Under the pieces are notes generated by a model that saw only the letters and a list, made by a program, of their open reading frames with translations, did no database searches and had not been told where the DNA came from. From Phycisphaerae bacterium (GTDB taxonomy: Bacteria; Planctomycetota; Phycisphaerae; UBA1845), in contig JAJDEB010000002.1 of NCBI GenBank assembly GCA_029260015.1, positions 1-64,000 on the forward strand: a DNA stretch of 64,000 nucleotides, read 5' to 3'. Shown piece by piece: positions 1 through 30,623 of the stretch (positions are counted from its first letter, which is position 1; each line of letters starts with the position of its first letter). A program made the position numbers and the translations under genes.

Positions 1-75
<75 letters not shown>

Positions 76-2017: not shown

Positions 2018-2146
2018 TCAGGTCGATGCCCCGAACTCATTCATCCGTCGCTCAAGTTGATCTTCCCAGAAATACGGATCTGGCCGAAGATGCCGTTTCC
2101 GAACGGGACGCCGTTGCTTTGCAGGCTTCCTCTTGGGCTTACTCAT
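2018..2146 (-). CDS. Small basic protein (42 aa) overlapping integrase stop
   Basis: A short frame whose ATG lies 8 bp inside the integrase 3' end (ATGAGTAA, where TAA is the integrase stop). The N-terminal half is very basic (MSKPKRKPAKQRRPVRKRHL) and the rest is acidic/amphipathic (DPYFWEDQLERRMNEF). The overlap geometry and a GGAGAGGGAG stretch upstream support translation. A small DNA-binding accessory factor is possible but nothing in the sequence proves it. Confidence 0.35.
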   Translation of the reverse strand: MSKPKRKPAKQRRPVRKRHLRPDPYFWEDQLERRMNEFGAST

Positions 2147-13523: not shown

Positions 13524-16505
13524 CTACGCCGATTTCTTGCCGAGCGCGTCCGCGACCCGTTTGAAGATCGCTAGGCGAAAGATGTCACCAAAACGCTCAT
13601 CGTCTACGACCTTTTTGTAGATCTCAGCGTTCGATTCAAACATGTCTTCCAAGACTTCATTGAAGTAGTCGTTGAAGGCCAGTCGCCTGTTCTCTTCCGA
13701 CTTGTTGATTTCAGGATCAAGCGCTCGGTGCAGCCCCTCTTGATCCACAAGGCGGCGTTCCATATCGCCCGCGAAGTACTCCACTTTGTCCGAATCCGTG
13801 AAGTCCGTTCCGAAGTTCTCGTTGATGTACTGTAAGATCTCCGAGAGCGGAGTTTTCTCGTCTTCCTTCCGAGCGCCGGTGCCGACTTCGGAGGCTGGCT
13901 TCAGCTCACCATCCTCATCCACGAGGGCGATGTCGCCGGTCGAGGTCTGCTGAATTCGGTAGCTCTCCATGTTGATCTTGTCGGTCACTTCGACAGGGAG
14001 CCGTTCGCGTTCAATCGGCAAGAGCGGGCGTAGGAGTCTCAGGAAGTGGTACGTCTTTTCAAGGTTCACGTCGGAAAAGGAGAGGATGTGCGACAGAAAC
14101 CCGTACATGCGGACAAAGTTCACGACGGCTTGACGAAAATCTTCGCGTTCTTCCTTCTCCCGCCCGCGATAGCGGTCAACCACGGGATCAAGGACGGCTC
14201 GGACCTGCTTTTGGGTGCCCGTCCTTGAAAAGTAGGCTTTGGAAAACGCATCTACATCCGCCTTGACGAAGATCAAGAACTCCTCAGCCGCGCGCTTCAG
14301 ATCGTAGAGCTTGTTGGGATCGGTGGCCTCGCTCAGCAAGGTGGCCTCGTAGTACGGCTGAAACGCGATCTTGATGTCCTCCGACTCGTTCACGAAGTCG
14401 AGAACGACGGTATCGGGCTTGTTGACGCACATGCGGTTCAATCGGCTCAATGTCTGGACGGCGTTGACACCCGCCAGTTTCTTGTCCACGTACATCGCGT
14501 CCAAAAGCGGCTGATCGAAGCCCGTTTGAAATTTCTCGGCTACGATCAGAAAGCGGTACTCCGGCTTGCGAAAAGCGGAGGCCGTTTGACTCTCCGGGAA
14601 GCCGTTCATTTCCGATTCGGTATGCTCTTGTCCGGTGCCGGGATCTTTGCGTTTCCCTGAGAACGCGACGAGCGCCTTGTACGGGAGGTTCTTCTCTTTG
14701 AGCACCTGGTCAAACATCTTCTTGAAGCGAACAGCGTGGAGCCGGGAACGCGTCACAACCATCGCTTTTGCTTGCTCGTCGATACGCTTCGCGACCTGCG
14801 TCTCGAAGTGCTCCACGATGATCTCGGTCTTGCTGCGAATGGCGTGGTCGTGCAGGTCGGCATACGACTTCAGTAGGGCAATCGACTTCTTCTTCGGAAA
14901 CGCAGGATCTTCCTCAATCCGCTTGTGCAGACCAAAGTACACCTTGAACGTCGTGTAGTTGCGAAGCACGTCGAGGATGAATTCCTCCTCGATGGCCTGC
15001 CTCATCGAGTACAGGCTGAAGGACTGAAACATGCCGTCAGGGCGCGGCGTACCGAACAGCTCCAGCGTCTTCGGCTTCGGTGTCGCAGTGAAGGCGAAAA
15101 AGCTGACGTTCGGAATCCGCCCACCCTTCTTGATCAGTTCTTCGACGCGGGCGTTGATCGCGTCCTCATCGTCTGTCTCCTCGTCTTTCTCTTCTTTCTC
15201 CGCATCCTCCAGCGTCGTAGCCGCGAGCGTCCTCTTCATGCTCCGCGCGGTCTCACCGCTCTGCGAGGAATGGGCTTCGTCAATCAGGACCGCGAACTTC
15301 TTACCCGCGACTGCCGATATCTTCTCCGTGACGAAGGGAAACGTCTGAAGCGTCGTGATGATGATGTCCTTGCCAGCCTCAAGCGCCTCCGCGAGCTTCT
15401 TGGCTTTCTGCGTATCGATGGAGCTGACCAAGCCGCGCGTCTGCTCGAAACTCTTGACGGTCTGCTGAAGCTGCCAGTCCAAAACACGCCGATCCGTGAT
15501 AACAATGATAGAATCGAAGACGCGGGTGTCGTCCTTATCGTGCAGCCCGGCGAGTTGATGAGCCACCCAAGCAATCGTGTTCGACTTACCCGACCCAGCG
15601 GAGTGCTCAATTAAGTAGCTCTGACCCGGACCCGCCTGCTTCGCGTTAGCAACCAATCGCCTCACCGAATCAAGCTGATGGTAACGTGGGAAGATGAGCG
15701 CCTTCTCGCCGGTCGCCTTCCCATCCTCATCGATGATGTCCACGACCCGCAGAAAATGATTGATGATCTCAAGCAAACTGTCCGGCTGCCAAACTTCGTT
15801 CCACAGATAGGCTGTCCGAAAGCCTTTAGGGTTGGGCGGGTTTCCGGCTCCGTTGTCGTGGCCGAGATTGAAGGGCAGAAACCGTGTCGCCGTTCGCTGT
15901 AAACGCGTCGTCATGAATACAAGGTCGGGATCGACGGCAAAGTGAGCAAGGCACCGACCGAACTTCAGCAGCGGTTCCTTGGGATCTCGGTCTTTGCGGT
16001 ACTGCGAGATCGCGTTCTCGACGTTCTGCCTCTTCAGAGGGTTTTTCAACTCCGCCGTGAAGATGGGGATTCCGTTCAGGAAAAGACCTACGTCAATGCT
16101 CTTTTCACTTTTCTCACTGTAATGGAGTTGTCTAGTCACCGTGAATTGATTCGCGGCGTAGAGCTTCTGATGGTCGGGGTTCAGCCCGCTTTCCGGCTTG
16201 AAATAGGCGAGGTCGAAGTGACAGCCGAGATCAGTGATGCCCTTACGCAGACAATCCAACGTGCCACGAGCTTCGATCTCCTTGGTCAGCCGCTTCAGGA
16301 AACGCGCCTTCACGTCCGGCCCGTGCTGCTGCTTCAGTTTCTCCCACGTCTGAATCTGGGTGGCGCGGATAAAGTCGAACAGCAGCTCGGGATCAAGGCA
16401 GAGCGTCCGGTCATAGTCCTGCGGACGCCGTTTGCGAAAGCCGCTCGCGAGAAGATCGGCTTCAATGCTCACCTCAAAATCTCTTTCGGACGTATCGACA
16501 GTCAT
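13524..16505 (-). CDS. hsdR: Type I restriction enzyme R subunit
   Basis: The translocase-nuclease subunit of a type I restriction enzyme, 993 aa. The N-terminal HSDR nuclease shows the PD-(D/E)XK signature in SIDVGLFLNGIPIFTAELKN near residue 150. The SF2 motor follows: motif I EHSAGSGKSNTIAW, motif II LIDEAHSSQSG, motif III AFTATPKP, and motif VI region EKFQTGFDQPLLDAMYVDK. The C-terminal helical domain mediates assembly with HsdM/HsdS. The start overlaps the stop of the upstream gene (ATGA), so it is the last gene of the long operon. With HsdM and HsdS present and intact, classical restriction is plausible. Confidence 0.95.
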   Translation of the reverse strand: MTVDTSERDFEVSIEADLLASGFRKRRPQDYDRTLCLDPELLFDFIRATQIQTWEKLKQQHGPDVKARFLKRLTKEIEARGTLDCLRKGITDLGCHFDLAYFKPESGLNPDHQKLYAANQFTVTRQLHYSEKSEKSIDVGLFLNGIPIFTAELKNPLKRQNVENAISQYRKDRDPKEPLLKFGRCLAHFAVDPDLVFMTTRLQRTATRFLPFNLGHDNGAGNPPNPKGFRTAYLWNEVWQPDSLLEIINHFLRVVDIIDEDGKATGEKALIFPRYHQLDSVRRLVANAKQAGPGQSYLIEHSAGSGKSNTIAWVAHQLAGLHDKDDTRVFDSIIVITDRRVLDWQLQQTVKSFEQTRGLVSSIDTQKAKKLAEALEAGKDIIITTLQTFPFVTEKISAVAGKKFAVLIDEAHSSQSGETARSMKRTLAATTLEDAEKEEKDEETDDEDAINARVEELIKKGGRIPNVSFFAFTATPKPKTLELFGTPRPDGMFQSFSLYSMRQAIEEEFILDVLRNYTTFKVYFGLHKRIEEDPAFPKKKSIALLKSYADLHDHAIRSKTEIIVEHFETQVAKRIDEQAKAMVVTRSRLHAVRFKKMFDQVLKEKNLPYKALVAFSGKRKDPGTGQEHTESEMNGFPESQTASAFRKPEYRFLIVAEKFQTGFDQPLLDAMYVDKKLAGVNAVQTLSRLNRMCVNKPDTVVLDFVNESEDIKIAFQPYYEATLLSEATDPNKLYDLKRAAEEFLIFVKADVDAFSKAYFSRTGTQKQVRAVLDPVVDRYRGREKEEREDFRQAVVNFVRMYGFLSHILSFSDVNLEKTYHFLRLLRPLLPIERERLPVEVTDKINMESYRIQQTSTGDIALVDEDGELKPASEVGTGARKEDEKTPLSEILQYINENFGTDFTDSDKVEYFAGDMERRLVDQEGLHRALDPEINKSEENRRLAFNDYFNEVLEDMFESNAEIYKKVVDDERFGDIFRLAIFKRVADALGKKSA

Positions 16506-18832
16506 TGCGGTTCCTCATTGGCAGCCGTCTGTCCGGCCTGAAGCAGCCCAAGTACTTGCTCAGTTTCGTTATCTTGCCGCACTACCTCCGCGCCACCCTC
16601 GAAATGATATGACACAAAGCGCACTCCATCGGACTGCCTGCGGTTATAGAAGTAACATGCATTCTCAGCGGTATCGGGCGATGGAAGCACCCGAATTAAC
16701 GGCAGCAGCTTGAGGCCGCGAGTTTCACCATCAGCAAAGAAATAGAGATGCCCATGTTCCAGTGGTTCACTCGTCTGGATAGTGACCGTCTCAAATGGAG
16801 TGGCAAGCCCGACCAGCATGTCAGCGCTCACCGAAAAAGTACCTTCGACGAACTTCATCTCTCGCGGGCGATAGAGCTGATACCGGCTCCACATATCGCC
16901 AAAACACTCCCGTGCCTTGGTCAAGTACACGCCGAGTCTGTCTAGCCGCTGTATGACGATGCTGTCGCCAACGACTCCTCCATGCCCCCGCCAATCGTTT
17001 CGGAGAGCATTTGTATCCTGCATGATCCCGACGAGTTTTGAAGACAAGAGCGACTGAAGTAGCTCATGATCATGGGACATGAATAGCCTCTTGCAGCGAG
17101 CGCGTTCCTCCTCTGCCCCATTGAGCATCGTTCTTGCACGCTTGCCAAGGCGCTCGGCAACCTTCACCCACGTGCCAAATGTGCTGCGTTCAACAGACAG
17201 GTGATGTCTAGACAGGGCATCACGCAGCTTGTCTCGTTCCGCCTTGAAGATCTCATCGTCTCGCACAAAGGCACTCAGAAACAGGGTCGCGAGAAACTCC
17301 GCGAGCGCCTCAAAGAAGTGATCGAGGTGATCGAGTTTTTTGTGGAAGTTCACGTTCTCCGCGTGATACGCCCAGAGAATGGTCGCTAATGGGAACGGAA
17401 GTGAAGCGAGCCAATCCGTGAATCGTTCCTCGTTATTCACCCGATTGAGTTCTCGCACGGTTTGGTCAACAGTGCGTGGCCGCATCCACATCCGCTGCTG
17501 CAACTCGGTAAGCTCCGCCACCAAACCCCGTATCCGCGAATGCGCGTCAAGCGCGTTTCGCTGTATTTCGGGCGGTGGAAGAAACACATCAATGTGCGAG
17601 AGCGTCTTCTTCGTAATCTTCGGAATCGTCACGCCGGAGCAAGCGCTTTCGCGAACAACATGCCCAAGTGGCGAGTTGAAGAACGCGGCAATGTACTCTG
17701 GCTCATCCTCCCGTGAAAAGTCGATGATGAGCTGGGCGTAGTTGTGCGGCTTGAGGGTCAGTTCCGAAAGAGAAGAAACAGCATCGCTGCGACCGATCAA
17801 CGGCAAATAGACCGCGTTGGGTTTGTTTTCGAAGTCAGTCGGATCGGAGCTGGCTGTCAGATTCACTTCGCTGAAGACATCGGCGAAAGGAATGGGATCG
17901 AGTCCGCTGCGCGCGGCCATCCTTGTGATACGTTCCTGTGCCGCAAGGGGCTCAAAGCCGCGAAACGTCTGTGGGTCTACAATCGAGCCGAGCGCCAGTT
18001 CTTTGCCCTCCCGTCGCGCAAGCATATTCTCGATCAACACGCGGTTGCGGTCGCGGTTTCCTGCTAGCGCTGCGACGAAGATCGGCTGACGATCACCCCT
18101 GCCGATTAGTACGAGCCCAGTGGGTATCCCAGTCCACGGCACGAATGTTCCTGCGGGGATACCAATGTAAGCCTCAACTCGCAGGCCGAAGCGTGACATG
18201 TTTGCGTAAACGCCATTCGTCTTGCTTGGGGAGACAAAACCCGGATGAACGACGAAGAGGGCTTTCCCGCCATCAGTTAGAAGCCGACACGATTTCAGTA
18301 GAGCATGATTACCCGCATCGTCGTGGACGCTGACGTGAGCTTCAGGTGTATCGTAACGTTCTTTGCTAGGACGCAAGCCAAATGGCGGACAGCTAACGAT
18401 CAAGTCAAACGAACCACTCTCCTCGTCGAGCCGCTTCACGGGATCCGCACAACACCAGCTCACAATGCCATCGGCATCGAGATACCGTGCAATCTCGACC
18501 TGATCAACATTCGGGCAGATCGCAAGGGTTCGCTCAGGCTTGAGAGATCGAACCACAGGCAAGAGCAATGTTCCTTGATGAGACCACGGATCAAGGACAG
18601 CCTGCGCGGCGCGCCCAGACACACAATCGACGATGAATTCGGCCACGATGGCAGGGCACACGCCCTCGCTCAATTCCTGCATTCTCGCTGCAAGGGCACG
18701 GAGATCCTCTAACGTCGGCGCAAGATCATGTTCTTTGGCGATGCTCAAAAGGTCGTGCAATCCGCGGAGCCGATACCGCCCACGTTCGCGCTCCAAGTGT
18801 TGCCATAGTTTCTGAAGCTGTTCAGATTCCAT
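16502..18832 (-). CDS. Degenerate N6-methylase / specificity-like / HEPN-like fusion
   Basis: 776 aa of composite architecture. Residues about 50-200 resemble the HsdM-type N6-methyltransferase fold, but motif I reads VLDPWSHQGTLLL (a Gly of the usual DPACGTGG pattern is lost) and motif IV is CPPF at 148-151 in place of N/D-PP-Y/F, so methylation is doubtful. Residues about 350-470 resemble an S-subunit target-recognition half (NSPLGHVVRESACSGVTIPKITKKTL, then IDVFLPPPEIQRNA). Near 611-619 is RNDWRGHGG, a possible HEPN-type R(x5)H motif in a helical region. The C-terminus is unassigned. It lies 14 nt after the FokI-like gene and overlaps hsdR by 4 bp. It may be a sensor or a modified-DNA/target selector for the system; function unknown. 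Confidence 0.7.
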   Translation of the reverse strand: MESEQLQKLWQHLERERGRYRLRGLHDLLSIAKEHDLAPTLEDLRALAARMQELSEGVCPAIVAEFIVDCVSGRAAQAVLDPWSHQGTLLLPVVRSLKPERTLAICPNVDQVEIARYLDADGIVSWCCADPVKRLDEESGSFDLIVSCPPFGLRPSKERYDTPEAHVSVHDDAGNHALLKSCRLLTDGGKALFVVHPGFVSPSKTNGVYANMSRFGLRVEAYIGIPAGTFVPWTGIPTGLVLIGRGDRQPIFVAALAGNRDRNRVLIENMLARREGKELALGSIVDPQTFRGFEPLAAQERITRMAARSGLDPIPFADVFSEVNLTASSDPTDFENKPNAVYLPLIGRSDAVSSLSELTLKPHNYAQLIIDFSREDEPEYIAAFFNSPLGHVVRESACSGVTIPKITKKTLSHIDVFLPPPEIQRNALDAHSRIRGLVAELTELQQRMWMRPRTVDQTVRELNRVNNEERFTDWLASLPFPLATILWAYHAENVNFHKKLDHLDHFFEALAEFLATLFLSAFVRDDEIFKAERDKLRDALSRHHLSVERSTFGTWVKVAERLGKRARTMLNGAEEERARCKRLFMSHDHELLQSLLSSKLVGIMQDTNALRNDWRGHGGVVGDSIVIQRLDRLGVYLTKARECFGDMWSRYQLYRPREMKFVEGTFSVSADMLVGLATPFETVTIQTSEPLEHGHLYFFADGETRGLKLLPLIRVLPSPDTAENACYFYNRRQSDGVRFVSYHFEGGAEVVRQDNETEQVLGLLQAGQTAANEEPQ

Positions 18833-18846
18833 GAGCTTTACTCCAA

Positions 18847-20244
18847 TCAGATTAGCGACTCCCGAACCGCGTCCGCCGAAAGCACCCCGCTCACGCTGAA
18901 TAACCGTTGGACGCCATCTGGTCCCAAGGTGACTTGGAGCGGGGCTCGCAACTTCGCGTCCACGATGGCCACGAGCGCCTCAGCCTCCACGAGACCGACC
19001 TCGTTCACGTCGGTGTCCATCTTGATGGACCGAATCGTGTCGTCGTAGTCGTCCGCGAAACCGCTCGAAATGACGAGATAGTAGATGTTTCGCAACGAAC
19101 GGCGGCGCTTCATTTCGCGACTCTGCGTGGTGATGTACTCACGGATCGCCCGGTCATCGGTTCCCATGCTGTAGCCGTTTGTTCGGACTTTCGCATCCCA
19201 GAGGATCGCGTAACTATCGTCCAACGCCACAGCCAGCCCGTCCGGTACGCGCCCTTTACCTTGCCCGAGCAGCTTCGTCTCGTACCCCAGCATCGTGAAC
19301 GCCGCGTCGATGTACTTTTCAAAGGCCCGCTCCACCGTGGTCCCGGATCGCTTTGCTACCTCAATCAGCGCCTCATCATGCCGCGCCAGTTGGGGCAGGA
19401 TGGCGGCGATGGGAGGAACGTAACTCTCCGGCAAGCGTCCTTTGATCGCCGAGATGGTCTCCGGGCCGCTCTTGGGTGACACGACCACAGGCATCTCAGG
19501 CTTGACGGTGCCCTTAGCGGCTTCATACGGATTGCCGCCCTGAAACCAGAAGACGTGCTCCACCTTGTAAAGATCGAAAGGCTGACCGCTCGCCTCGGTA
19601 AACAGGACGGCGAGTTCTTCGTGGATATGTTTGAACGTCAGATAGTCCTCTGCCAAGTCACCGGCTGGCTGCCACAGGTTGAGATCAGTCATCGTCTGAA
19701 CGCTGGCGGTGTAGTAGACGGGCCATACGTCGCGCTCTGCGATCTGCCAGAAGTACGACAGAAAGAACGGGGCGCTGCCGAGCTTCGGCGTTCCATGACG
19801 AGTATTGCCTGCCTCAACCCACTGCTCGCCCAACCGTTTGGCGTAACTGGCAAAGGTCTTGATCCGGCTCGACGCGATCTGTTCATTGGCTGGCACCGCC
19901 AAGGCGGCTTTCAGCTCTTGGTCGCATTCGTCGGCATCGTCGGCGACGTTTACGACCATGTTAAAGAACATCTGTCCCTTGATCCCCTTGAAACCCCACA
20001 GCTCGTTACGCTTGTTCAAGCCGTCCACCTTGGACTTGAATTCCGCCAGAGCAATGTCGCCGTTCAGGTAGACAGCATGCAACGGCTTGAGATCGCCTTC
20101 GATGAGGCTGACACGCCGCTCATCCAGCTCCGTACTCTCGGCAACCGGCGTCTTGCCGTCGCCGCTAGTGGGCGCAGACAGGTACTCCTGCATGACCTCC
20201 ACCGCGCGCTGTTTCTGTTGTTCATTGAGCAACGCCATGATCAC
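18847..20244 (-). CDS. FokI-like PD-(D/E)XK nuclease protein
   Basis: A 465-aa predicted endonuclease. Residues about 330-365 read VPDG (334-336), a strand with D350-A-K352, then RTNGYSMG; the following helix and strand end in YYLVISSGF. This order parallels the FokI cleavage domain (PDG, D-x-K, GGY, then a strand ending VSGHF), so I infer a FokI/AlwI-type nuclease. The N-terminal 300 residues are of unknown binding function. It starts at GTG (20244) overlapping the HsdS stop (GTGA) or at ATG 20238. Neighbours show it belongs to the type I operon. It resembles a monomeric nuclease needing dimerisation, but that is by analogy. Confidence 0.72.
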   Translation of the reverse strand: MIMALLNEQQKQRAVEVMQEYLSAPTSGDGKTPVAESTELDERRVSLIEGDLKPLHAVYLNGDIALAEFKSKVDGLNKRNELWGFKGIKGQMFFNMVVNVADDADECDQELKAALAVPANEQIASSRIKTFASYAKRLGEQWVEAGNTRHGTPKLGSAPFFLSYFWQIAERDVWPVYYTASVQTMTDLNLWQPAGDLAEDYLTFKHIHEELAVLFTEASGQPFDLYKVEHVFWFQGGNPYEAAKGTVKPEMPVVVSPKSGPETISAIKGRLPESYVPPIAAILPQLARHDEALIEVAKRSGTTVERAFEKYIDAAFTMLGYETKLLGQGKGRVPDGLAVALDDSYAILWDAKVRTNGYSMGTDDRAIREYITTQSREMKRRRSLRNIYYLVISSGFADDYDDTIRSIKMDTDVNEVGLVEAEALVAIVDAKLRAPLQVTLGPDGVQRLFSVSGVLSADAVRESLI

Positions 20245-21593
20245 ACCGCCTCTCGCACGTCTATTTCGCCAGTGACCGCTGCGGAGATTAGCGCAGTCCT
20301 GAATTCCAGCAGCGTGCTTATCAAGTCTCGGTTGTTTGAAACCAGCGCGTTGATTTCCGCGCTGCGCGCTTCCAAGTGGCTGAGGATCTTGGCCTGCTCC
20401 TCAATGCTTGGGTACGCGAGAACGAGATTGCCGACGCGGGCGTTCGAGATGTTCTTCATCGACGGGCTTGCCCCGCTTGCATCTCGCTCGATCTGCTGCC
20501 GGGCTGGGTGCGACCTTAGTAGACACACGGCATAATTGCCGAGAAGCCGCGATTCGTCGATGACGATGCGATACAGCTTGTCACAAAGCATGATCCGCCC
20601 CTGCGTCTCGTGAACGCGCCCAACCGATCCCACCAGCTCGACGGTGTTGGACCGGGACATGAGTAAGTCGCCTTCTTTGATCTCGTATTCGGGACGCGGG
20701 GCAAGGCTGGGCGGCAGTGCCTTGTTTTCCGATTCCTCATAGACACCCGAATTCATACAGCCGACTTTCAGCACGCCCCATTCGCCGGGATCAGTGAGGC
20801 GGTTATCACATTGAGGGCTCCAGCCCTGTTCGATCTTTTCGTAGCGGTATTTGAATCTACCGACTTCCCAGTGGCTCGGCACCTTTCCCAACCACGGGCA
20901 GTTGGTCTCCGCTTTTCGCGCCGATGGATTGATCCCTTGCGTCACCGCCTTCGCCATGATGGCGTGGTGTCTTTCCTCAAGCAGCTCGATGAGTCGCTCT
21001 TTCTTAGCGACCATCGCATCGATCTTCGCGCTCTCGCGGTCAAGAAAAGCGGCGATCCTCTGCTGCTCGACAGTCGGCACCACAGGAAGCCGAATCACAC
21101 CAAGCGCTCGCTTGGTGATGTGAACAAGCCCGATGATGCCGTGAGCCTTTTCCTCGACATACGCCGTCACAGCTCGGAGAGTCCAGTAGAACCATTTCTT
21201 ATTGACCGAGTATTCCGCCAAGCGAAAAATGTGCTGATTGAGATAATGGAGCCCCGGCTGGTACCAAATGAATGGCCCGAATGAGGTGCCTCGGTTACCC
21301 GACCACGCAAACAGGAGATCGCCGTCGCGCACATGGTATCGCTCGTCGGCTTCTACGGTCGTGTAGTTGAAGTCCCGACCTTTGTTCAGATTCTCTATGC
21401 GGATTATTGGCGTACCGGAGTCTCCCCAGTCGGAGGGTTTGAACGGCGCGCCGTTGATGAACCGAGCGAAATACTTCAGCGGGCGCGTGTCCCAATGTGA
21501 CGGCATTCGCTCTAGCCATTCGGCGGATGAGTCTCGATACGATGGGTACGGACGGAGCGGTGCGCCGTCTCTGTCAAAAGTGCCTGCGATCAT
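20241..21593 (-). CDS. hsdS: Type I restriction specificity subunit
   Basis: 450 aa with two target-recognition domains and the two conserved helical spacers of HsdS. The first repeat ends PVVPTVEQQRIAAFLDRESAKIDAM then LIELLEERHHAIMAKAVTQG; the second ends LAYPSIEEQAKILSHLEARSAEINAL then LISTLLEFRTALISAAVTGE. It directs HsdM and HsdR to a bipartite DNA site. The ATG overlaps the hsdM stop (ATGA). It is complete, with both half-sites present, so the enzyme should recognise an asymmetric bipartite target. Confidence 0.95.
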   Translation of the reverse strand: MIAGTFDRDGAPLRPYPSYRDSSAEWLERMPSHWDTRPLKYFARFINGAPFKPSDWGDSGTPIIRIENLNKGRDFNYTTVEADERYHVRDGDLLFAWSGNRGTSFGPFIWYQPGLHYLNQHIFRLAEYSVNKKWFYWTLRAVTAYVEEKAHGIIGLVHITKRALGVIRLPVVPTVEQQRIAAFLDRESAKIDAMVAKKERLIELLEERHHAIMAKAVTQGINPSARKAETNCPWLGKVPSHWEVGRFKYRYEKIEQGWSPQCDNRLTDPGEWGVLKVGCMNSGVYEESENKALPPSLAPRPEYEIKEGDLLMSRSNTVELVGSVGRVHETQGRIMLCDKLYRIVIDESRLLGNYAVCLLRSHPARQQIERDASGASPSMKNISNARVGNLVLAYPSIEEQAKILSHLEARSAEINALVSNNRDLISTLLEFRTALISAAVTGEIDVREAV

Positions 21594-23674
21594 GCGGTCA
21601 TCTCCGCAAGCATGGTCATGATCTCGCTTTCCAGTCGCTCGATGTCAGCGTCGATCTCAGATAATGGTCGAGGGGCATCGTACATATAGAAATAGCGGCT
21701 GACGTTGATTTCGTAGCCCACCTTTCCGATGTCCCCGTCAGCATCGTCACGCACATTCTCGTTTATCCATGCGTCAGGAACATGTGGGGCGACTTCGCGG
21801 GCGAAGAACTCTCGAACGTCCTCAGTCAGTGGAACATTCTCATAATCACGCAATTCAGAGTCAGGTTCAGGGCTGCCGTCCGGGCTCCGGCAAATGTCAG
21901 CAGTCTCATCGCGCTCACCCAAGGCAGCGAGGCAGGCTTTGCGGATCGGTGCGGCGAGCTTCACGCCTGCTTCCTCAAAAGCCGCTTCTAAGACGACGGC
22001 GAATTCGTCGCGATTCTTGTACCCGCGACTCGCATCCATCGCCCGCAGGAGCGAGAGAATTGCCTCCTGCATCTTGCGGCCTTGCGCTTCTTCCTTCTCT
22101 CTCGCTTTCTTGTCACGCTTCTTGCTCTTGGCGAGGTGCTGAAAGGCGGTCAAGGGGGAGAGCCGTTGTATCCGATCTTCGGAAGTTTCAAAACTTAGAC
22201 GCAGCGGGCGTTCAACGGTGATCTTTCGATAGCCGAAGTCCGTCACATCGAAGATCTTCGCATGCGGACCATTCTTGAAGGCTGCGGCGAGGGTAGCGAG
22301 TTGTTCGATGTGCTCATTAGCAAGCTCGTTGCGTTTGTCGCCGAGGCTCTTACGCATCTTCTGAGCGAAGACCTCTTTCTTATCCTCGTTGCCGTCCTTC
22401 TCCGTCGCGGCACCGTTGACGAGCAGAACTTTGCCCCTGCGGTTCTTCGGTTTTCGATTGCTCAAGACCCAGATGTAGGTATGGATGCCGGTGTTGTAGA
22501 ACAACTGGGTGGGCAGCGCCACCATGGTCTCCAGCCAATCGTTCTCAAGGATCCAGCGGCGAATCTCGCTCTCCCCGCCGCCTGCGTCTCCGGTGAAGAG
22601 GGGCGATCCGTTCATGACGATTGCAAGCCGCCCACCACCCTCGGCGACCGGCTTCATCTTGGAGATCATGTGCTGCAAAAAAAGCATCTGTCCGTCGCTG
22701 ATCCGAGGCGTACCGGCCACGAAGCGTCCACCGCGCTGCGTCTTGATTTCAGCTTTGATCGCGTTGGCGTCTTTCTTCCAGTCCTTACCGTAAGGTGGAT
22801 TGCTGAGTTGGTAATCAAACGTCTTGCGGGGGTGGCCATCCTCGGACAGCGTGGAGCGGTTCTTGATGTTGCCCGCGTCCCGATCATCCCCCTTGATCAG
22901 CATATCGCACTTGCAGACGGCGCAGGTTTCGTCGTTGACTTCCTGGCCAAACAGGCGGATGTCCGCGTCTTCGTTGAACTTCTCGTGAACGTAGTCCTTC
23001 GCGATGGAAAGCATGCCACCCGTACCGCATGCCGGATCGTAGACTGTCCGCACGACAGCTTGCTGTTTCAGAATGGCCTTGTCGCCATTGAGCACGAGAC
23101 GAACCATGAGGCGGATCACCTCGCGCGGCGTGAAGTGCTCACCGGGGTTCTCGTTCGACTGCTCGTTGAATCGCCGGATCAGTTCCTCGAACACGTAGCC
23201 CACGTCGTGATTGCTGAGCGATTCGGGATGCAGATCTACCTTCGGATCGACAAACTTGCCCAGCAGCCGGAACAGCAGGTCTTTCTGGTCGAGCAGATTG
23301 ATCGTGTTGCGGAGATTGAACTTGTCGAGGATGTCGCGGACGTTTTCGGAGAATCCGTTGATGTAGTTGATCAGGTTCTTACCGACGTTCTTCGAATCGT
23401 CGCTGAGCTTGTAGAAGTCGTACTTGGACGTGTTGTAGAACGCGTACTTGGACGCCCGCCTAAGCTGACCGTCAACATTCTCGATTCCCGCCTTCTTCAG
23501 CGCGACAGCCTTAGCCAGCACCTTCTCTTTCGTCGGAGCAAGAACGCAGTCGAGGCGGCGCAGCACGACAAACGGCAAGATGATGTCAGGGTACTTGCCG
23601 CGCTTGAAGTCGTCCCTCAGAACCTCGTCTGCAACGTCCCAGAGGAAATTGGCGATCTCGCGTATGTCAGCCAT
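21590..23674 (-). CDS. hsdM: Type I restriction methylase subunit
   Basis: N6-adenine methyltransferase subunit of the type I enzyme, 694 aa, at the long end of the family because of a charged linker (KSKKRDKKAREKEEAQGRKM) in the C-terminal part. The N-terminal HsdM domain includes LSNHDVGYVFEELIRRFNEQSNENPGEHFTPREVIRLMVRLV. Motif I is VYDPACGTGGMLSIAKDYV and motif IV is LSNPPYGKDWKK, both intact. Methylates the target and protects the host. The gene overlaps hsdS by 4 bp, and lies 32 nt after the HEPN gene. Confidence 0.95.
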   Translation of the reverse strand: MADIREIANFLWDVADEVLRDDFKRGKYPDIILPFVVLRRLDCVLAPTKEKVLAKAVALKKAGIENVDGQLRRASKYAFYNTSKYDFYKLSDDSKNVGKNLINYINGFSENVRDILDKFNLRNTINLLDQKDLLFRLLGKFVDPKVDLHPESLSNHDVGYVFEELIRRFNEQSNENPGEHFTPREVIRLMVRLVLNGDKAILKQQAVVRTVYDPACGTGGMLSIAKDYVHEKFNEDADIRLFGQEVNDETCAVCKCDMLIKGDDRDAGNIKNRSTLSEDGHPRKTFDYQLSNPPYGKDWKKDANAIKAEIKTQRGGRFVAGTPRISDGQMLFLQHMISKMKPVAEGGGRLAIVMNGSPLFTGDAGGGESEIRRWILENDWLETMVALPTQLFYNTGIHTYIWVLSNRKPKNRRGKVLLVNGAATEKDGNEDKKEVFAQKMRKSLGDKRNELANEHIEQLATLAAAFKNGPHAKIFDVTDFGYRKITVERPLRLSFETSEDRIQRLSPLTAFQHLAKSKKRDKKAREKEEAQGRKMQEAILSLLRAMDASRGYKNRDEFAVVLEAAFEEAGVKLAAPIRKACLAALGERDETADICRSPDGSPEPDSELRDYENVPLTEDVREFFAREVAPHVPDAWINENVRDDADGDIGKVGYEINVSRYFYMYDAPRPLSEIDADIERLESEIMTMLAEMTA

Positions 23675-23706
23675 CTTAGCCGAGCCCTTTCGTCAGCATC
23701 ATCTCA

Positions 23707-24864
23707 TCAAGCCTCATCATCGCCCGATTCGCGGTCGAATTTCGGTCCATAGCGTTGATCCACTTCGTGGCAGCCTTCCTCGGAGAACAGATCCGTGCAG
23801 TTGATGATCGAGTATGGATCGAGCCGATCCACGAACAGACGCGCATTCTCTTCCGCGGTCCTGAGCGGCGAGAACATCACATCGTCCTCATCGCTTCCAC
23901 CTGCAATGAAACTGAGATCTGTGCGTGTGAGCCTCTCGTCCGCGAGCGTCCCGGTCTTCTCGGTGATTTCCAAAAATACGTTCCCTGACTTCTGAACCAG
24001 CCGAACGCCCGTAATATCGGGACGCATCCACTGCGGGAAACGACGCCGCAGCTCTCCCAGAATGTCGAGTGAGAAGCCGTAGCTCGCTACGAATTCCGAG
24101 AGCTGGTCGAGTTTCGCCGACAGGGATACAAGCTGGCTCTCGTCCAGGTCAGTGGGTTGGCCATGGACGATCTTGTTCCTTGCCTGGCGGGCCGCGTGAA
24201 ACACTTCAGAGTGATTCTGCGGGATGCTCTCGCACGAGGATTGAAACATTTGCCATGCGTGAGCACCTGAGACGAGGCGTGAGTCGCTTGGATCTCCTAT
24301 CGCAAGGGCGCGCAGAGTTGCCTGAAGGGTCTTCTCGAAGTCAATGAACGCTTGAAGAAACATCATCTGTGCCGAACCCGATAGCGTCTCCGGCTGTGGA
24401 ACCGGCGATGGGGTCAGTACCTCTGCGGAAAGGTGAGATTCGGGATCAACTTGAAACAAGGTTTCGAAGACTGAGAAGGCTGCGCTCCGAATGCCACCAA
24501 GTGCCCGCTCCTCGGGCACCATGCCGTTACCGGAGTGATATAGCTCATTCCGTAGTGCATGGAACCAGACAATTTCGTCGGTTGTCACTACAAGCTCGAC
24601 TGCGTGTTCCTCAGCGTACTCACCAAAGAAGTCAATTTTCGAATGGTAGTTAGCCAGCCACTTCGTCACGCGCTCTCTTGGAAACGTCCTGCCGTTGCGC
24701 TGGGTTGGATGAAGTTGAAGGAAGGTCGTGATCGAAACCTCGATGGAGTTGTCAAAGCTGATAAGGGCCATTCGCTTGTCGAAGTCCGAGCCAAGCCGCA
24801 GATGATCCTCCGCATGCTGAAGTAACTCAAATGGTCCGTAGACCCACGGCTTCAACTCAGACAC
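23707..24864 (-). CDS. Double-HEPN protein
   Basis: 385 aa, mostly helical, with two HEPN-like R(x4)H motifs: RNELYH at residues 105-110 and RNKIVH at 229-234, the second followed by Gly (HG). Each sits at the end of a helical bundle, as in HEPN ribonuclease domains, many of which cut RNA in toxin-antitoxin, CRISPR and abortive-infection systems. The C-terminal 100 residues (TGVRLVQKSGNVFLEITEKTGTLADER, in fragments) look beta-rich. It starts at a GTG overlapping the stop of the helicase gene by 8 bp, so translation is coupled. The likely role is a regulated RNase; targets and trigger are not visible. Confidence 0.75.
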   Translation of the reverse strand: MSELKPWVYGPFELLQHAEDHLRLGSDFDKRMALISFDNSIEVSITTFLQLHPTQRNGRTFPRERVTKWLANYHSKIDFFGEYAEEHAVELVVTTDEIVWFHALRNELYHSGNGMVPEERALGGIRSAAFSVFETLFQVDPESHLSAEVLTPSPVPQPETLSGSAQMMFLQAFIDFEKTLQATLRALAIGDPSDSRLVSGAHAWQMFQSSCESIPQNHSEVFHAARQARNKIVHGQPTDLDESQLVSLSAKLDQLSEFVASYGFSLDILGELRRRFPQWMRPDITGVRLVQKSGNVFLEITEKTGTLADERLTRTDLSFIAGGSDEDDVMFSPLRTAEENARLFVDRLDPYSIINCTDLFSEEGCHEVDQRYGPKFDRESGDDEA

Positions 24865-27589
24865 GCTGAAGCTCCTCCAACAAACGGTCCAGGTCTACCT
24901 TTTCGAAGTACCCGGCGTCCCGAAGCGCGCTGAAAAATAACTCGGTCGTCACGGTGCCCTCCCAGATCCGCACAATGGCTTCACAAAACGTCACATGCGT
25001 AATCAAGGTAAGTCGCTGGCCTGCTGCGCGCTCAATTGGAATCTGATCGAACTTGGGCTTTCCAAGAGTCGCTTGGGCAACAGGCTTCAAATGGGCTGCC
25101 TTCGCGATGACCTCAAATGCGTCATGCAAGCCAACTGTCCCTTCCTCACTCTGCTTGGCTTTGCACTCGATCACCAAGAGGCCGTCGCTGAGAGGAACGG
25201 CCAAATCGGGCTCCGCTGATCCGCCAACGTCCTGTTCGCGAGCGTTGGGTGCGACCGTCTGGAGCAGATGGAGCGCAGCGCGATTGAATGCCAAGCCTTG
25301 GGCTTCGTAGAAATCATTCACTAAAGCCGGATCTCGACCGCACACAGAGGCTCGATTGGCGTGACTGACTTGATTATGCCGCGAGATGTCATCCAGATAC
25401 CGCACAACAGCCTCGCGAAATAGCTCGGCTCGGCGAGTGGAGCTGAGGATGCGTGCCAGTTCCTTGATGTCCTCACCAAGTAGCTTGGCAAGATCGTTGT
25501 AACCACCGGCTGCCATCCGCTCAGCGCGGTTACGCCCTACGCCGCGTACATCACCGAGCCGTGCGACGACGCATAGCTCAACTGCATTGTCTGTGACGCC
25601 AAACTCAAGTCGCCTTGCGAGGTGCTTCAGCCATCGACGGAATTCAGGATTCGCGGCTTCGTTACGGGCGTCCTCGATGGACGCGGCTGCCTGAAGCATC
25701 CATGAAGCGTATCCGGCGACCCGACGTACATTGCCCGCGGTCGCATAGCGACCGATCTTCGCAAGGTCGGCGAAATTTGTTGTATTGATGTATTTGGAGA
25801 GAACGAACGCTGTGAACAAGGCGCGTTGGAAATCCTCGATCTCGCTTGAATTGGCGAATCTCGTGAAATCACCAGCAACAGAGAGAATGGTCCCGATGGG
25901 GTCATTTCGATGAACGAACAGCAGTGCGTCGTCCTGCGTTGAAGGAGCAATGTCCGGGCTTCCCGCCGCTACCAAGAGCACGGTACTTTCAAATGTATCT
26001 CGATGACTCCATGAGAACTCCTTGCTCGCATCGTCTAGGGCAGTGAAGAGAAATTGGCCAGTCTGAGGCAGAACGCCTGACGCTGCGACCCGAAGTCCCA
26101 AGCGAGAGGCAATGAGGCTGCCTCTGCCTTGCCTCACGATCATTTCACTTCCCGTAAGTGCCGTAAGGCATTGGTCGATATCATCGGCGTTGATTCGTTC
26201 ATCATCACCCAATGTGGCAGCGTGGTATGACCTATCGAAGAATTGCTGGATTTCTGTCTCGGACCGTGCGATTCGTCCTGCGATAGCCTGCAAAACAATC
26301 CGCTCAAGATTGCTTCCGACGAGTTGGCTCTTCACGGGATCAGAGTCAGCCGCCAGATACTTGGTATAGCGGTGGACCTCAGCAGCGTTACGCGCAATCA
26401 GAATGCTCTTCCCCTGCTCCTGCATGCCGCGCCGTCCTGCCCGACCTGCCATATTCAGGTATTCGGTGGCACTTATGTATTCGCTGACCCATTTTCGTTC
26501 GCACTTATCGAATACGACCGTCTTGATGGGTAAGTTGACGCCCGCACTCAGGGTGGGAGTGGCAAACAAGAGATCAATTCTTTGTTCGCGGTATGCCGAC
26601 TCGATCAGTCTTCGCTCAGACAAGTCAAGATCAGCCGTGTGGAACGCAATTCCCTTGGGAAGAAGATCGCGGAGCGAACGAGTAACCGGATTGCTTTCGA
26701 TGGCCTCGTCAAGTTCATTGACAAGCTCTTCGCATTCTGGCCGACGCTCGCGTGACTGTGCGGCTGCGATTGCAAGATCTTGTGCATCTCGCTTTGTTAC
26801 GCAAAATACAACGGTGGGAAGTCCGTCATCCTGCCCTAGCCGTTGGATAACCGGCAGCGTCTCGGTTGGAGCAGGGTTGGCATCTACGCACAGCGGATTC
26901 GCATCCTGGTCTCTGTCTCGACGGACGATCCCGGTGCGGCTCCATACCTCCTCAATGAGCGGTACACTGCGATCAGGGATGGTGACGACGGTCGCGCCTA
27001 GCCAATCGGAGAGTTGCTCGATGTTGGGTACAGTGGCCGACAAACCGAGGATTTGGGCGTCAGGCAACTTCGCGCGAGTCCAAGTGAGAAGCGCTTCGAT
27101 GAGTGCGCCACGATATTCATCGCCAAGCGTCTGCAATTCATCGACGATGACGAGAGATTTCGCCTGCAACCGCGTTGGATTGTCCAGAAGCATGTAGTAC
27201 CACTTCTCGTAGGTCGCAACCGTAATCGACACGCCTTCGGCTGCGGATTCGTCCGTAACCTCATCGCCCGTCGCAACCGTGACGCGAACAAGCTGCTCAC
27301 CGGACTCGTAGCTTTCCCGGAGCATTGCATACTTTTCATAGGCAAGTGCTTTGTGCGACGTGAGGAAGACAGCACCCTTTCGAGATACGGCGTGCTGCAA
27401 AGCAGCCAGCTCAGCAATCAAGGTCTTCCCGGATGATGTTGGAGCCATCACGAGGAGATTTGAGCCGGAGAGTAACCCCGCATCGACCGCCGCTTCTTGA
27501 ATGGTGAGTAGTTCGGTGATTCCGCGCAGTTCAAGCGCAGTGACGCCGAACTCAGGCAGCCCGTGCGCAGTAAGCTCTGCGATCCTCAC
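24857..27589 (-). CDS. Hel308/Ski2-like helicase fused to a PD-(D/E)XK nuclease
   Basis: 910 aa. The SF2 motor has motif I APTSSGKT at 49-56, motif II DELQ at 150-153, motif III LSATVPN, motif IV-type VVFCVTKR, and motif VI AGRAGRRG at about 382-389. The Q-like motif and the HhH segment LGDVRGVGRNRAERMAAGG (around 678-696) match Hel308, an unwinder of forked DNA. A C-terminal domain with PD near residue 795 and ECK at 808-810 matches the PD-(D/E)XK nuclease fold. The GTG start follows a perfect AGGAGG. The first large gene of the operon, it overlaps the double-HEPN gene. Helicase-nuclease fusions are common in defence (for example Hachiman uses separate helicase and nuclease proteins), but this order was not recognised as a named system. 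Confidence 0.8.
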   Translation of the reverse strand: MRIAELTAHGLPEFGVTALELRGITELLTIQEAAVDAGLLSGSNLLVMAPTSSGKTLIAELAALQHAVSRKGAVFLTSHKALAYEKYAMLRESYESGEQLVRVTVATGDEVTDESAAEGVSITVATYEKWYYMLLDNPTRLQAKSLVIVDELQTLGDEYRGALIEALLTWTRAKLPDAQILGLSATVPNIEQLSDWLGATVVTIPDRSVPLIEEVWSRTGIVRRDRDQDANPLCVDANPAPTETLPVIQRLGQDDGLPTVVFCVTKRDAQDLAIAAAQSRERRPECEELVNELDEAIESNPVTRSLRDLLPKGIAFHTADLDLSERRLIESAYREQRIDLLFATPTLSAGVNLPIKTVVFDKCERKWVSEYISATEYLNMAGRAGRRGMQEQGKSILIARNAAEVHRYTKYLAADSDPVKSQLVGSNLERIVLQAIAGRIARSETEIQQFFDRSYHAATLGDDERINADDIDQCLTALTGSEMIVRQGRGSLIASRLGLRVAASGVLPQTGQFLFTALDDASKEFSWSHRDTFESTVLLVAAGSPDIAPSTQDDALLFVHRNDPIGTILSVAGDFTRFANSSEIEDFQRALFTAFVLSKYINTTNFADLAKIGRYATAGNVRRVAGYASWMLQAAASIEDARNEAANPEFRRWLKHLARRLEFGVTDNAVELCVVARLGDVRGVGRNRAERMAAGGYNDLAKLLGEDIKELARILSSTRRAELFREAVVRYLDDISRHNQVSHANRASVCGRDPALVNDFYEAQGLAFNRAALHLLQTVAPNAREQDVGGSAEPDLAVPLSDGLLVIECKAKQSEEGTVGLHDAFEVIAKAAHLKPVAQATLGKPKFDQIPIERAAGQRLTLITHVTFCEAIVRIWEGTVTTELFFSALRDAGYFEKVDLDRLLEELQRV

Positions 27590-27620
27590 TCGAACCTCCT
27601 AACGAATGTCGTTCTGAGTA

Positions 27621-27866
27621 CTACCCTTCACTCGCTCCGCCTGCGGGATTTCGGCGGTTCCGGCTATCGCCATGCGGCGGCGGGTTCGGTCGAGCGTTCT
27701 GCTTAATGTACGCATCCAGATCCGCTTGCCGAAATCGCCGGTCGCCGCGCTTGCCAATCCGCACGCAGGGCAACTCGCCTTTCCGGGTCCACCGGCGCAG
27801 CGTGATCTTGGCTACCCCCAGATAGGCCGCGGCCTCGTCGAGTGTCATAAGCCCCTGGTCAGCCAT
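27621..27866 (-). CDS. MerR/excisionase-type HTH protein
   Basis: 81 aa from the ATG at 27866 (an upstream TTG at 27875 is weaker). The core is a textbook HTH_17 DNA-binding domain: MTLDEAAAYLGVAKITLRRWTRKGELPCVRIGKRGDRRFRQADLDAYI (in fragments), with the typical wing KRGDRRF. A Pro/Asn-rich basic tail follows. It lies 31 nt upstream of the helicase gene and is probably the operon's regulator, though excisionase-like function is possible because this fold is also used by excisionases. Confidence 0.75.
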   Translation of the reverse strand: MADQGLMTLDEAAAYLGVAKITLRRWTRKGELPCVRIGKRGDRRFRQADLDAYIKQNARPNPPPHGDSRNRRNPAGGASEG

Positions 27867-27968
27867 GGCTTCCAAGTGTATCTTACTTGGTCAGGAGCAC
27901 AAGCCGCCGACGCGGGCGCAAAGGCGGGCTCAAGCCGCGCCAAACGGCCCCGATGGAAGTTCCATGCG

Positions 27969-28919
27969 ATGAAGGAACGATCAGTTAGACGAAAACTAAG
28001 CAGCGTTGAAACCGGCCTCAAGGAAGATGGACCTGAGCCGGATAGAGAATCACTGAAGCAGCCCATCGTGTTCGACTCACATGCCCTCCTGGACTACGCG
28101 CGGATGCTTGCGGAGATCTCCGCCTTCATCTGCAAGGAGCGGAGCGATAATCAAAGTTGGCTAATCGGATTCAGAACAGGGAGCACCGCGCTTGCTTTCG
28201 ATGCTCTTCTATCGCTCGGCGAAGACGCTGCGACGTTCATGCGGGATCCCAAGCACGGTGAGCCGGGAGAAGCTAAGAATCCTAATGAGCTTCACTCTGA
28301 ATTAGATGAGCTCTACGCGCAGGGGGTGAGGTCGGTCATAGTGCTTGACGAGATCGTCGGTGGTGGGAGCGTCCGCTCGGCTGCCAAGGAAGTGGCACAG
28401 TGGTGTGGGATTCGCGAATGCGGAGATGCACGATTTGTGCTGGCAGGTGCCTCGCAACTATCCCCGGACGACTGCGCGCGAGAACTCAACGCGGCTTGCA
28501 GAAAGGCGAGGAACGTCGATAGCAACATCAGCATCTCCTACGAGAGTTTCTGTTGCAGAACGTTGCTATCGATTGACAAGCGATACATGGCGATCAAGAT
28601 GGATCGTCGTCAGAAAGAACAGGGAAGTTACGTACCAAACCCAGTAAGCGGAACGGTGGAGAATCCCATACACGCGGCTGGGTCTCATTTTGATACGCCA
28701 GCGATCCAGATTCGCTGCCATGGCGGCGGGCCCAGCGGCGATTGGCCCTCCGCTTCTGATGTATCTGGCTCGTTCGCCTCCATCGTGAAACACATTCTGG
28801 ATGGCGGTGGAGACGAGTTCGACAGCGTTTGGCCGGAGACAATCCTGCGCCAAAAGTTATGCCAGGAATGCCTGCGACTCCTCAATGCCGCCCGAAAAGC
28901 ACGCCGAAACCACGAGTAA
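27969..28919 (+). CDS. PRTase-fold-like protein, unknown
   Basis: 316 aa, transcribed divergently from the HTH/helicase operon. Residues 118-135 (RSVIVLDEIVGGGSVRSA) resemble the PRPP-binding loop of the type I phosphoribosyltransferase fold (two acids, then a Gly-rich loop), and residues 64-76 (WLIGFRTGSTALA) resemble the upstream loop. The acids D-E fit the loop pattern but the Gly-rich end is unusual, so catalysis is uncertain. The C-terminal 130 residues contain RxHGGGPSGDW and an HIL helix without a known family. PRTase-fold domains occur in several predicted phage-defence proteins. The convergent HEPN gene ends 81 nt away, which suggests a pair. A start at 27969 is chosen over in-frame codons upstream with no RBS. 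Confidence 0.5.
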   Translation: MKERSVRRKLSSVETGLKEDGPEPDRESLKQPIVFDSHALLDYARMLAEISAFICKERSDNQSWLIGFRTGSTALAFDALLSLGEDAATFMRDPKHGEPGEAKNPNELHSELDELYAQGVRSVIVLDEIVGGGSVRSAAKEVAQWCGIRECGDARFVLAGASQLSPDDCARELNAACRKARNVDSNISISYESFCCRTLLSIDKRYMAIKMDRRQKEQGSYVPNPVSGTVENPIHAAGSHFDTPAIQIRCHGGGPSGDWPSASDVSGSFASIVKHILDGGGDEFDSVWPETILRQKLCQECLRLLNAARKARRNHE

Positions 28920-29000: not shown

Positions 29001-30377
29001 CTAACTATAGTGGGAAAAGAAACGAGCCACCTCGACTGCGAGTAACAAGAGCAGCTCCTCCAGGCTCGTTCCTCCAGCGCACTCAGTCTTCACTGGGTGT
29101 TTTCGAACGAGCCATTCCTTAATCTCATCAACTCTCTGGCCGCTTGCGAACCCAACCAACTCTCGTGCTTCGGCTCGCACATCGGCGTTGCTGCTAGACA
29201 CCTTCGTTGCTGCATGGCTGAAGACGCCAATCGCCTCCCAAACGTCGCTCGAATCAGGGAGGGCTACAGTGAACTGCCAGTCGAAACTGGTTGCAAGCTC
29301 CTGCAACATTTGATCAAGCTGCTCCAATGCACTCCCGGTTGCCTTCGCGGCGCGTTCGACAGAGCCCTTGGCATGGGTGAGCTTCTTCACAGACTGCCAG
29401 CAGTTATCTGAATGCAAACAAGCCCGGAGAACGTCGTCGGCGCGGTCTAGTGACCAAGCACTCGATTCGCCTCCGCCGTACGCCGCTAGGGCTCTGCGCA
29501 GGATGTCCCTGCACACGGAGCGGGAAACCGTCGCATTCCCTTTGCGAGCAAGAAACGCATCTTGGGCATCTCCAAGGTGCGCCATAGCCCCAGATGCCAC
29601 TTTCCCATCACTGCCATGATTGTAGACAGAGCGCACTGAGTATAGCCCAACTGCCCACTCGCGAAGCTTGGGATCTGTACCGTAAACCGTTTCCAATTCG
29701 TTTGCGAGGCTGTTGTGCAGCTTCCCGCTGAAGGGATCGATGTCAAATGCCGCCTCCAGACACGAACAGTAATGCGAATAGTCCTGCGGCCAAGGGGAAT
29801 GGAACACGTCTCCGAATTGTGCCATGAAGTAGTGGTAGCAGGCTGTCACAAGTCGATGCGAAGGCGATTTCGTGAGGAGGCTGATTAGCGTGTCATGCGC
29901 CGCCGTGCTGTTGTCAAGGCAATACTGATCTGATCGACCACGCAGCTCGATGGGCGGAGAGACAGCCAAGCTATCCGCATCTTCGGTCAACGGTCCTTTC
30001 TTAGTCCACATCTGGACGAGATCATGGCCGGTACCTGATATTCGAATCTCGATGTACTTGAAGCGTTCCGCAGGTGCGCCGTGTGGGCCGTGATCGCCGA
30101 GCAGGTAGAGCACTCCAATCAGCCGGAACGCGTGCTCTCGCAACCAATTCTCATCTGCGGAGACGATCAAGGTACCCCGACATGGCTCGCCAAGCGCCGT
30201 TTCCCCACGCCGTGGAAAGGACCGAAAGCCGGACAGCCAGGTCGGGCGATCTTGATCAAGGGCGTTCCTCCAGCTCTCGTCTATATCTGGCCACAACTCA
30301 GCGTGTGCGATTTTCATGCGACCATTACGAGCGCCGTTGGCCACGAAGCTCACATATGGCATCCACAAGGCGCGCAT
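29001..30377 (-). CDS. Apea-like HEPN protein
   Basis: 458 aa. The centre matches the Apea-type HEPN pattern: CLEAAFDIDPFSGKLHNSLANELETVYG, then the helix KLREWAVGLYSVRSVYNHG, where R249-x4-H254 is the HEPN R(x4)H signature followed by Gly. Apea HEPN domains are predicted RNases or structural HEPN modules in anti-phage systems. The N-terminal 150 residues are beta-rich and unassigned; the C-terminal part is helical. The ATG at 30377 has AGGAGG four bases upstream. It is the last gene before attR. It converges on the PRTase-like gene. Confidence 0.68.
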   Translation of the reverse strand: MRALWMPYVSFVANGARNGRMKIAHAELWPDIDESWRNALDQDRPTWLSGFRSFPRRGETALGEPCRGTLIVSADENWLREHAFRLIGVLYLLGDHGPHGAPAERFKYIEIRISGTGHDLVQMWTKKGPLTEDADSLAVSPPIELRGRSDQYCLDNSTAAHDTLISLLTKSPSHRLVTACYHYFMAQFGDVFHSPWPQDYSHYCSCLEAAFDIDPFSGKLHNSLANELETVYGTDPKLREWAVGLYSVRSVYNHGSDGKVASGAMAHLGDAQDAFLARKGNATVSRSVCRDILRRALAAYGGGESSAWSLDRADDVLRACLHSDNCWQSVKKLTHAKGSVERAAKATGSALEQLDQMLQELATSFDWQFTVALPDSSDVWEAIGVFSHAATKVSSSNADVRAEARELVGFASGQRVDEIKEWLVRKHPVKTECAGGTSLEELLLLLAVEVARFFSHYS

Positions 30378-30571: not shown

Positions 30572-30623
30572 TGCCAGCTTCCCAAGCTGGACGTCGTCGG
30601 TTCGAATCCGATCGCCCGCTTTA
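30572..30623 (+). repeat. attR: displaced 3' part of tRNA-Gly
   Basis: A 52-nt copy of the 3' two thirds of the tRNA at 1-72. Two bases differ (the G-C pair of T-stem positions 50/64 becomes T-A), and the pairing is retained. No acceptor 5' half or D arm is present, so it is not a functional tRNA gene. Confidence 0.88.

Follow-up and report, generated by a model that had tools for sequence, protein, structure and literature searches.

Type I restriction–modification (R-M) operons with embedded cargo are already a known pattern, with PrrC, TgvAB and DarTG2 as published cargo (PMC3874165, PMC11411939, PMC12255303). In EcoprrI-PrrC, an anticodon nuclease is encoded within a type IC operon (PMC3874165, PMC3710099). 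A further operon with embedded cargo was found in the DNA of a Phycisphaerae bacterium (assembly GCA_029260015.1, contig JAJDEB010000002.1, positions 1–64,000; this whole stretch of 64,000 nucleotides is called the window below). Its eight genes form a co-directional block on the minus strand of the window from 27,866 to 13,524. Motif-intact HsdM, HsdS and HsdR of a type I R-M system are encoded in this one operon, and foreign defence genes lie between and beside hsdM, hsdS and hsdR within the same block. One of the added genes (gene position 16,502–18,832, minus strand) encodes a 776-aa HsdM-like protein with a HEPN-like domain, referred to here as the pseudo-methylase. As a whole, the locus is best explained as a type I operon on a tRNA-Gly island with exchangeable cargo and a recurrent pseudo-methylase companion carrying a coupled ribonuclease (RNase); the probability of this reading is estimated at about 0.5.

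The locus resembles EcoprrI-PrrC in that a latent HEPN ribonuclease, encoded in an hsd operon, would serve as a second line when restriction fails. In contrast to PrrC, which is an ABC-ATPase/HEPN protein, the likely HEPN domain is fused here to a presumably dead HsdM/HsdS-like body, and silencing by the type I complex would apply to it only by analogy. The VPI-2 type I operon with TgvAB (PMC11411939) is likewise a complete type I operon with embedded independent defence genes, but its cargo is GmrSD-like, whereas a helicase-nuclease, a double-HEPN protein, a FokI-like nuclease and the pseudo-methylase are found here. In the DarTG2/RptR island of enteropathogenic Escherichia coli (PMC12255303), a small DNA-binding protein also comes first, followed by hsd genes and cargo, and the whole is flanked by mobile elements; the cargo is different, and RptR and the HTH protein described below are likened by position only, not by sequence. 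DUF499 ATPase-HEPN proteins (Hma / BREX-related type 1; PMC12839542, PMC3710099) also combine a Swt1/Abi2-type HEPN domain with an R-M-like component, but the partner is an AAA+ ATPase there and an inactive methylase here, and the operon encodes no DUF499 protein. Finally, DndFGH (PMC10853773) is a restriction system with a dead methylase domain (DAM in DndH) and with HEPN as a backup effector (HEPN-fused DndF variants); its protein families are different, and its dead methylase and HEPN are located on separate chains.

Assignment of the operon to several named systems was rejected. No ABC-ATPase family was matched in any operon protein, as would be needed for PrrC. For Hachiman, HamB profiles covered the helicase core only and no HamA (DUF1837) match was found in the operon. 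For MADS (mad1–mad8), the mad2 and mad5 matches were merely at the level of domains and below the NCBIfam cut-offs where these are listed. For BREX and DUF499 (Hma), no PglZ, BrxC or DUF499 ATPase was matched.

The domains of the pseudo-methylase were assigned using profile searches, a predicted model and motifs. An HsdM-like part (residues 1–310) is followed by a reduced HsdS-like target recognition domain (TRD) with a coil (about 313–450), a Swt1-like HEPN domain (about 471–650) and a small beta domain (651–752). In a profile search of PDB sequences, residues 47–286 matched HsdM (EcoR124 HsdM, E 1.5e-28) and residues about 364–450 matched the terminal part of an HsdS TRD together with its coil. 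Modeling using AlphaFold2 led to a model with a predicted local distance difference test (pLDDT) value of 89, in which residues 1–301 match HsdM structures with a Z score of 24.3 and a root-mean-square deviation of 3.1 over 292 aligned residues. Motif IV of active N6-adenine methylases ([NDS]PP[YFW]) is canonical in 1 of 49 members of the pseudo-methylase family, and the member in the window has SCPPFG. In the HsdM comparison set the motif is canonical in 25 of 28 proteins, one of the three exceptions being a pseudo-methylase fragment (locus L006). The RN-x-H motif was present in all 51 pseudo-methylase members. Twelve columns of the family alignment are invariant; they include R611, N612, H617 and G619, and the methylase half contributes none. 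The protein is most likely a catalytically dead mimic of HsdM and half of HsdS. Its relatives are annotated in databases plainly as 'N-6 DNA methylase'.

Comparison of the C-terminal profile with Swt1-like HEPN domains (alignment members collected with PF18731) using hhalign gave a probability of 92%, a pairwise E of 5e-7 and a score of 41.1; the R, N and H columns were paired with each other. As controls, 100 column-shuffled Swt1 alignments reached a maximum score of 16.9 and the reversed alignment scored 18.6. The signal was weak for RiboL-PSP HEPN, and no signal was obtained in the hhalign comparison with DUF4145. Besides resembling a known HEPN family at the profile level, the C-terminus contains the R-x(4-6)-H motif of HEPN domains, and its predicted structure is confident and helical. 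A Pfam scan of 45 members of the C-terminal domain recognized Swt1 HEPN in two (best E 0.046). The top rows of a PDB sequence search with this domain were Csx1-type CRISPR HEPN proteins, with E values of 0.25–0.5, which are not significant. Homology of the C-terminus to HEPN domains is likely on these profiles and motifs, and the domain would be expected to act as an RNase.

To evaluate the distribution of the family, contigs were scanned using the C-terminal half of the protein. The scan yielded 54 loci, a lower bound given the narrow pattern filter, of which 52 are chromosomal and 2 are on plasmids; the family was found across bacteria and archaea. Co-directional hsd genes were located within six open reading frames (ORFs) in 27 of the 54 loci, and a full set of M, S and R in 23. 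The gene order is M-S-R-pseudo-methylase in Actinobacteria, M-[x]-S-[x]-pseudo-methylase-[x]-R in several bacterial phyla and pseudo-methylase-R-M-S in a Thorarchaeote, and several Hsd subfamilies are linked to the pseudo-methylase. Among plasmid records, 762 contain a relative of the HsdR described here and 4 a relative of the pseudo-methylase, different E-value limits having been used for the two. One relative was found in viral contigs. When the phylum was searched using a profile of the full-length protein, most of the hits were ordinary HsdM-like stretches. The pseudo-methylase is an optional companion of type I operons.

Orphan pseudo-methylases were found in Streptomyces and in Methanomicrobia. 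In the methanogens (L057, L059, L062, L064, L067 and L070), a gene for an OGG1-like 8-oxoguanine glycosylase is located directly downstream in six of six loci, overlapping the pseudo-methylase gene or nearly so. In Streptomyces phaeofaciens (L065), a complete hsd set lies on the opposite strand, a few genes from the pseudo-methylase. On the Gordonia plasmid pJH63-1 (L006, 12,675–15,194), the pseudo-methylase is split between two reading frames beside intact hsdM-S-R, which points either to natural loss of the gene or to an error in sequencing.

According to a 2013 survey, HEPN domains associated with R-M systems are fused to nucleases, helicases and ATPases, not to methylases (PMC3710099), and the pseudo-methylase/HEPN companion departs from this statement. 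Table 1 of the same paper lists occasional fusions of HEPN-M, another HEPN family, to nucleic acid methylase domains; thus, a HEPN–methylase fusion as such has a precedent. No described pseudo-methylase/HEPN component of type I systems was found in a literature search that covered few subscription papers and preprints, and the protein is apparently a widespread and undescribed type I companion. If the proposed reading is true, a recurrent HsdM-derived pseudo-enzyme with a HEPN nuclease would act generally as a back-up effector for a very common class of restriction systems, directly linking antirestriction and abortive infection.

In the proposed mechanism, a type I operon on the island would have acquired exchangeable defence cargo together with the recurrent companion. 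The pseudo-methylase would dock either on the type I complex or on its DNA. By analogy with PrrC, the HEPN RNase would stay silent until restriction comes into play or is blocked. Release of the RNase would then lead to growth arrest, a second line like that of PrrC for EcoprrI. A tethering of the effector to the type I complex or its targets is suggested because the dead HsdM/HsdS body and the strictly kept HEPN motif recur beside type I genes. This coupled-RNase mechanism, with its presumed activities, physical coupling and trigger, is put forward tentatively, at somewhat less than even odds; by it, the pseudo-methylase may halt infected cells once the first defence has failed. Ocr and ArdA are phage antirestriction proteins that bind the methylase core. 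A bolder and rather unlikely version is that the HsdM/HsdS look-alike would act as a guard that binds the ligands of the real enzyme (unmodified sites, or Ocr/ArdA) and thereby switches on the HEPN RNase, so that disabled restriction would turn into abortive infection; the family would then form a widespread, undescribed class of effectors.

Some results weigh against a coupled RNase companion. In half of the loci, hsd genes are lacking nearby (several of these loci are on truncated contigs); therefore, the pseudo-methylase can occur where no type I partner is encoded locally. The correlation of pseudo-methylase distances with those of HsdR is 0.56, against 0.99 for HsdM and HsdR; the value of 0.56 was reached in 0 of 2000 permutations. 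Such loose tracking of HsdR means that the pseudo-methylase is not a locked subunit. In addition, the C-terminal domain alone gave no confident PDB match using Foldseek/VIA, where unrelated helical or beta-barrel rows and no HEPN entry were among the matches listed. Judging from the distance correlations, the pseudo-methylase appears to have undergone repeated exchange and, even so, to return to hsd operons again and again.

The main rival explanation is that the pseudo-methylase is a DNA-binding regulator or a dominant-negative blocker of invader methylases, whose HEPN-like domain does not cut RNA. A retained methylase fold without the catalytic motif would suit such a role, which has been proposed in print for the inactive DAM domain of DndH (PMC10853773). 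However, few residues of the protein are conserved as strictly as the R, N and H that are likely to be catalytic, which would not be expected for mere binding, and we consider this explanation unlikely. It is highly doubtful that the protein has kept methylase activity or takes the place of one HsdM in an asymmetric M1M2S complex: the PacII structures (7vru/7vs4, among the matches listed) are examples of type I-like enzymes that can combine two different M subunits, and the HsdM fold match has a Z score of 24, but the catalytic motif is almost never canonical in the family and the TRD is reduced. That the neighbours are unrelated defence genes, which share an island and a promoter without functional coupling to the type I enzyme, would agree with the solitary life of helicase and FokI-like relatives. 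This is decidedly unlikely for the operon as a whole, since it leaves unexplained both the linkage of the pseudo-methylase to hsd genes across Hsd subfamilies and phyla and its HsdM/HsdS-derived body.

The opposite possibility, one dedicated and co-evolved system of eight proteins, was implied in the original prediction, an earlier reading of this DNA made from the sequence alone. A single co-directional block with four overlaps of 4–8 bp speaks for it, but no further locus with the set was seen among the 54 pseudo-methylase loci, and relatives of the helicase, double-HEPN and FokI-like proteins in the phylum sample (see below) sit in other contexts. As these relatives occur alone or in other operons in the loci searched, the eight-gene unit fell by the test proposed with it, namely that homologous loci have the extra genes absent or scattered; the idea is largely refuted and very improbable. 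The same prediction proposed an RNA-cutting or abortive second line; one that cuts RNA and is coupled to the type I enzyme survives as the best reading. The prediction's view of one gene as a degenerate methylase/TRD/HEPN fusion was backed by the profile work. The recurrent partner of hsd genes is this pseudo-methylase, which had been listed there merely among several extras.

The preferred reading of a type I operon with exchangeable cargo also rests on the remaining added genes. The Hel308-like superfamily 2 helicase (gene position 24,857–27,589, minus strand; 910 aa; PF00270, 9.9e-26) matched NCBIfam PRK02362 at 8e-102, below the family cut-off, and contains a PD-(D/E)xK nuclease motif at its C-terminus (PD...ECK at residue 794). 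The double-HEPN protein (23,707–24,864, minus strand; 385 aa) includes two RN-x3-H motifs, RNELYH and RNKIVH, and an extra C-terminal domain (about 265–372). Its C-terminal HEPN half was related by hhalign to the pseudo-methylase HEPN with a probability of 81% and to the Swt1 HEPN with 55%, while the N-terminal half was assigned to HEPN from the motif alone. On Vibrio and Klebsiella plasmids, the extra domain was also observed as a fusion with a T5orf172/GIY-YIG nuclease (39–45% identity; L009, 7695–8351; L010, 5686–6342), and it was matched, unannotated, on E. coli plasmids; by these alignments it appears as a module common to two nuclease types. The FokI-like nuclease (18,847–20,244, minus strand; 465 aa) has a cleavage domain recognized by PF09254 at 4.8e-6, above its Pfam cut-off, with a PD...DAK motif. 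Its N-terminal domain was also observed in AAA_5 and Mrr_N-AAA_5 (McrB-like) proteins (L118, 8113–11,106; L012, 5109–6605), which suggests a common target-recognition domain of modification-dependent enzymes.

A blastp search across the 54 pseudo-methylase loci revealed no relative of the helicase, double-HEPN or FokI-like proteins. In a sample of 294 genomes of the same phylum as the source, relatives were found in other genomes for the FokI-like protein (3), the double-HEPN protein (2) and the helicase (8). One FokI-like relative, 59% identical, is solitary, and helicase relatives are located on a Cereibacter plasmid, adjoining mutS, or downstream of a gene for a LexA-like repressor. In a different type I operon, a gene between hsdS and hsdR encodes a relative of the double-HEPN protein with a single HEPN domain (48% over 158 aa). 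FokI-like and helicase relatives were found together in just one sampled genome, where about 246 kb separate them. FokI-like relatives were not found in viral contigs, nor double-HEPN relatives in phages. Since relatives of all three proteins occur alone or in other operons, these proteins behave as exchangeable modules, and the FokI-like protein and the helicase-nuclease are most likely independent DNA-cutting defences. In other loci, the same junctions hold different cargo, namely GmrSD, SIR2 with HerA, a YhcG-type PDDEXK nuclease, DUF3644 and DUF4268; an AAA ATPase and HNH pair, DUF262, and DUF4433 with a macro domain were also found at type I operon junctions.

The core enzyme consists of HsdM (21,590–23,674, minus strand; 694 aa; PADLOC MTase_I, 1e-269; PF02384, 4.9e-62), HsdS with two TRD repeats (20,241–21,593, minus strand; 450 aa; PADLOC Specificity_I, 1.8e-93; PF01420, 7e-13, in two stretches) and HsdR, the restriction/translocase subunit (13,524–16,505, minus strand; 993 aa; PF18766, 6.2e-25; PF04313, 1.2e-15). 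HsdR also matched TIGR00348 at 8e-58, below the family cut-off, and the PADLOC HsdR profile at 8e-41. HsdM retains the catalytic motifs DPACGTG and NPPY, and HsdR retains D-x(n)-ExK, SAGSGKS, DEAH and FTATP. Accordingly worded in the original prediction, the intactness of the three Hsd proteins agrees with their recognition by Pfam, PADLOC and NCBIfam; all eight ORFs were recovered at the predicted positions and strand, and the domain calls and composition of the operon were essentially correct. Overlaps had been claimed at five junctions: four were counted (8, 4, 4 and 4 bp), and the other three junctions are gaps of 31, 32 and 14 bp. We are confident in this description of the operon and its cargo. 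Going by the intact motifs, HsdM2S would methylate the host DNA and HsdR would restrict unmodified DNA. The first gene encodes a small HTH_17/MerR-like DNA-binding protein (27,621–27,866, minus strand; 81 aa from ATG; PF12728, 1.1e-16), possibly the regulator of the operon. Promoter and terminator scans gave results no better than chance.

The operon is best read as cargo of an integrative island of about 30.5 kb at tRNA-Gly. A tRNA-Gly(ccc) gene is located at the window start (1–72), and an attachment-site-like repeat inside it (24–75, plus strand) forms the left end of the island. A second copy of the tRNA-Gly 3' end, 96% identical to the first over 52 nt, forms the right end (30,572–30,623, plus strand). 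This 52-nt direct repeat comprises the last 49 bases of the tRNA and three more; a search of the window gave no other direct repeat of this size. A tyrosine integrase lies near the tRNA end (2139–3416, minus strand; PF00589, 2.4e-27) and a second tyrosine recombinase at 11,075–11,947 (plus strand; PF00589, 4.8e-25). AlpA-like and RuvB-like proteins, an AEP-TOTE primase and a D12-class methylase are also encoded between the repeat copies. It is from the repeat ends and the recombinase, AlpA-like, RuvB-like and primase genes between them that the island is deduced; no GC anomaly was seen across it.

Two further ORFs were noted near the right end of the island. A 415-aa ORF (27,672–28,919, plus strand), without a family match, runs antisense to the HTH gene in its 5' part, and its true start is probably further in. 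A 458-aa protein (29,001–30,377, minus strand), for which no Pfam, PADLOC or NCBIfam match was found, contains RSVYNHG, a HEPN-like R-x4-H motif. In addition, the first 30 nt of the same tRNA-Gly were found at the end of contig C38.

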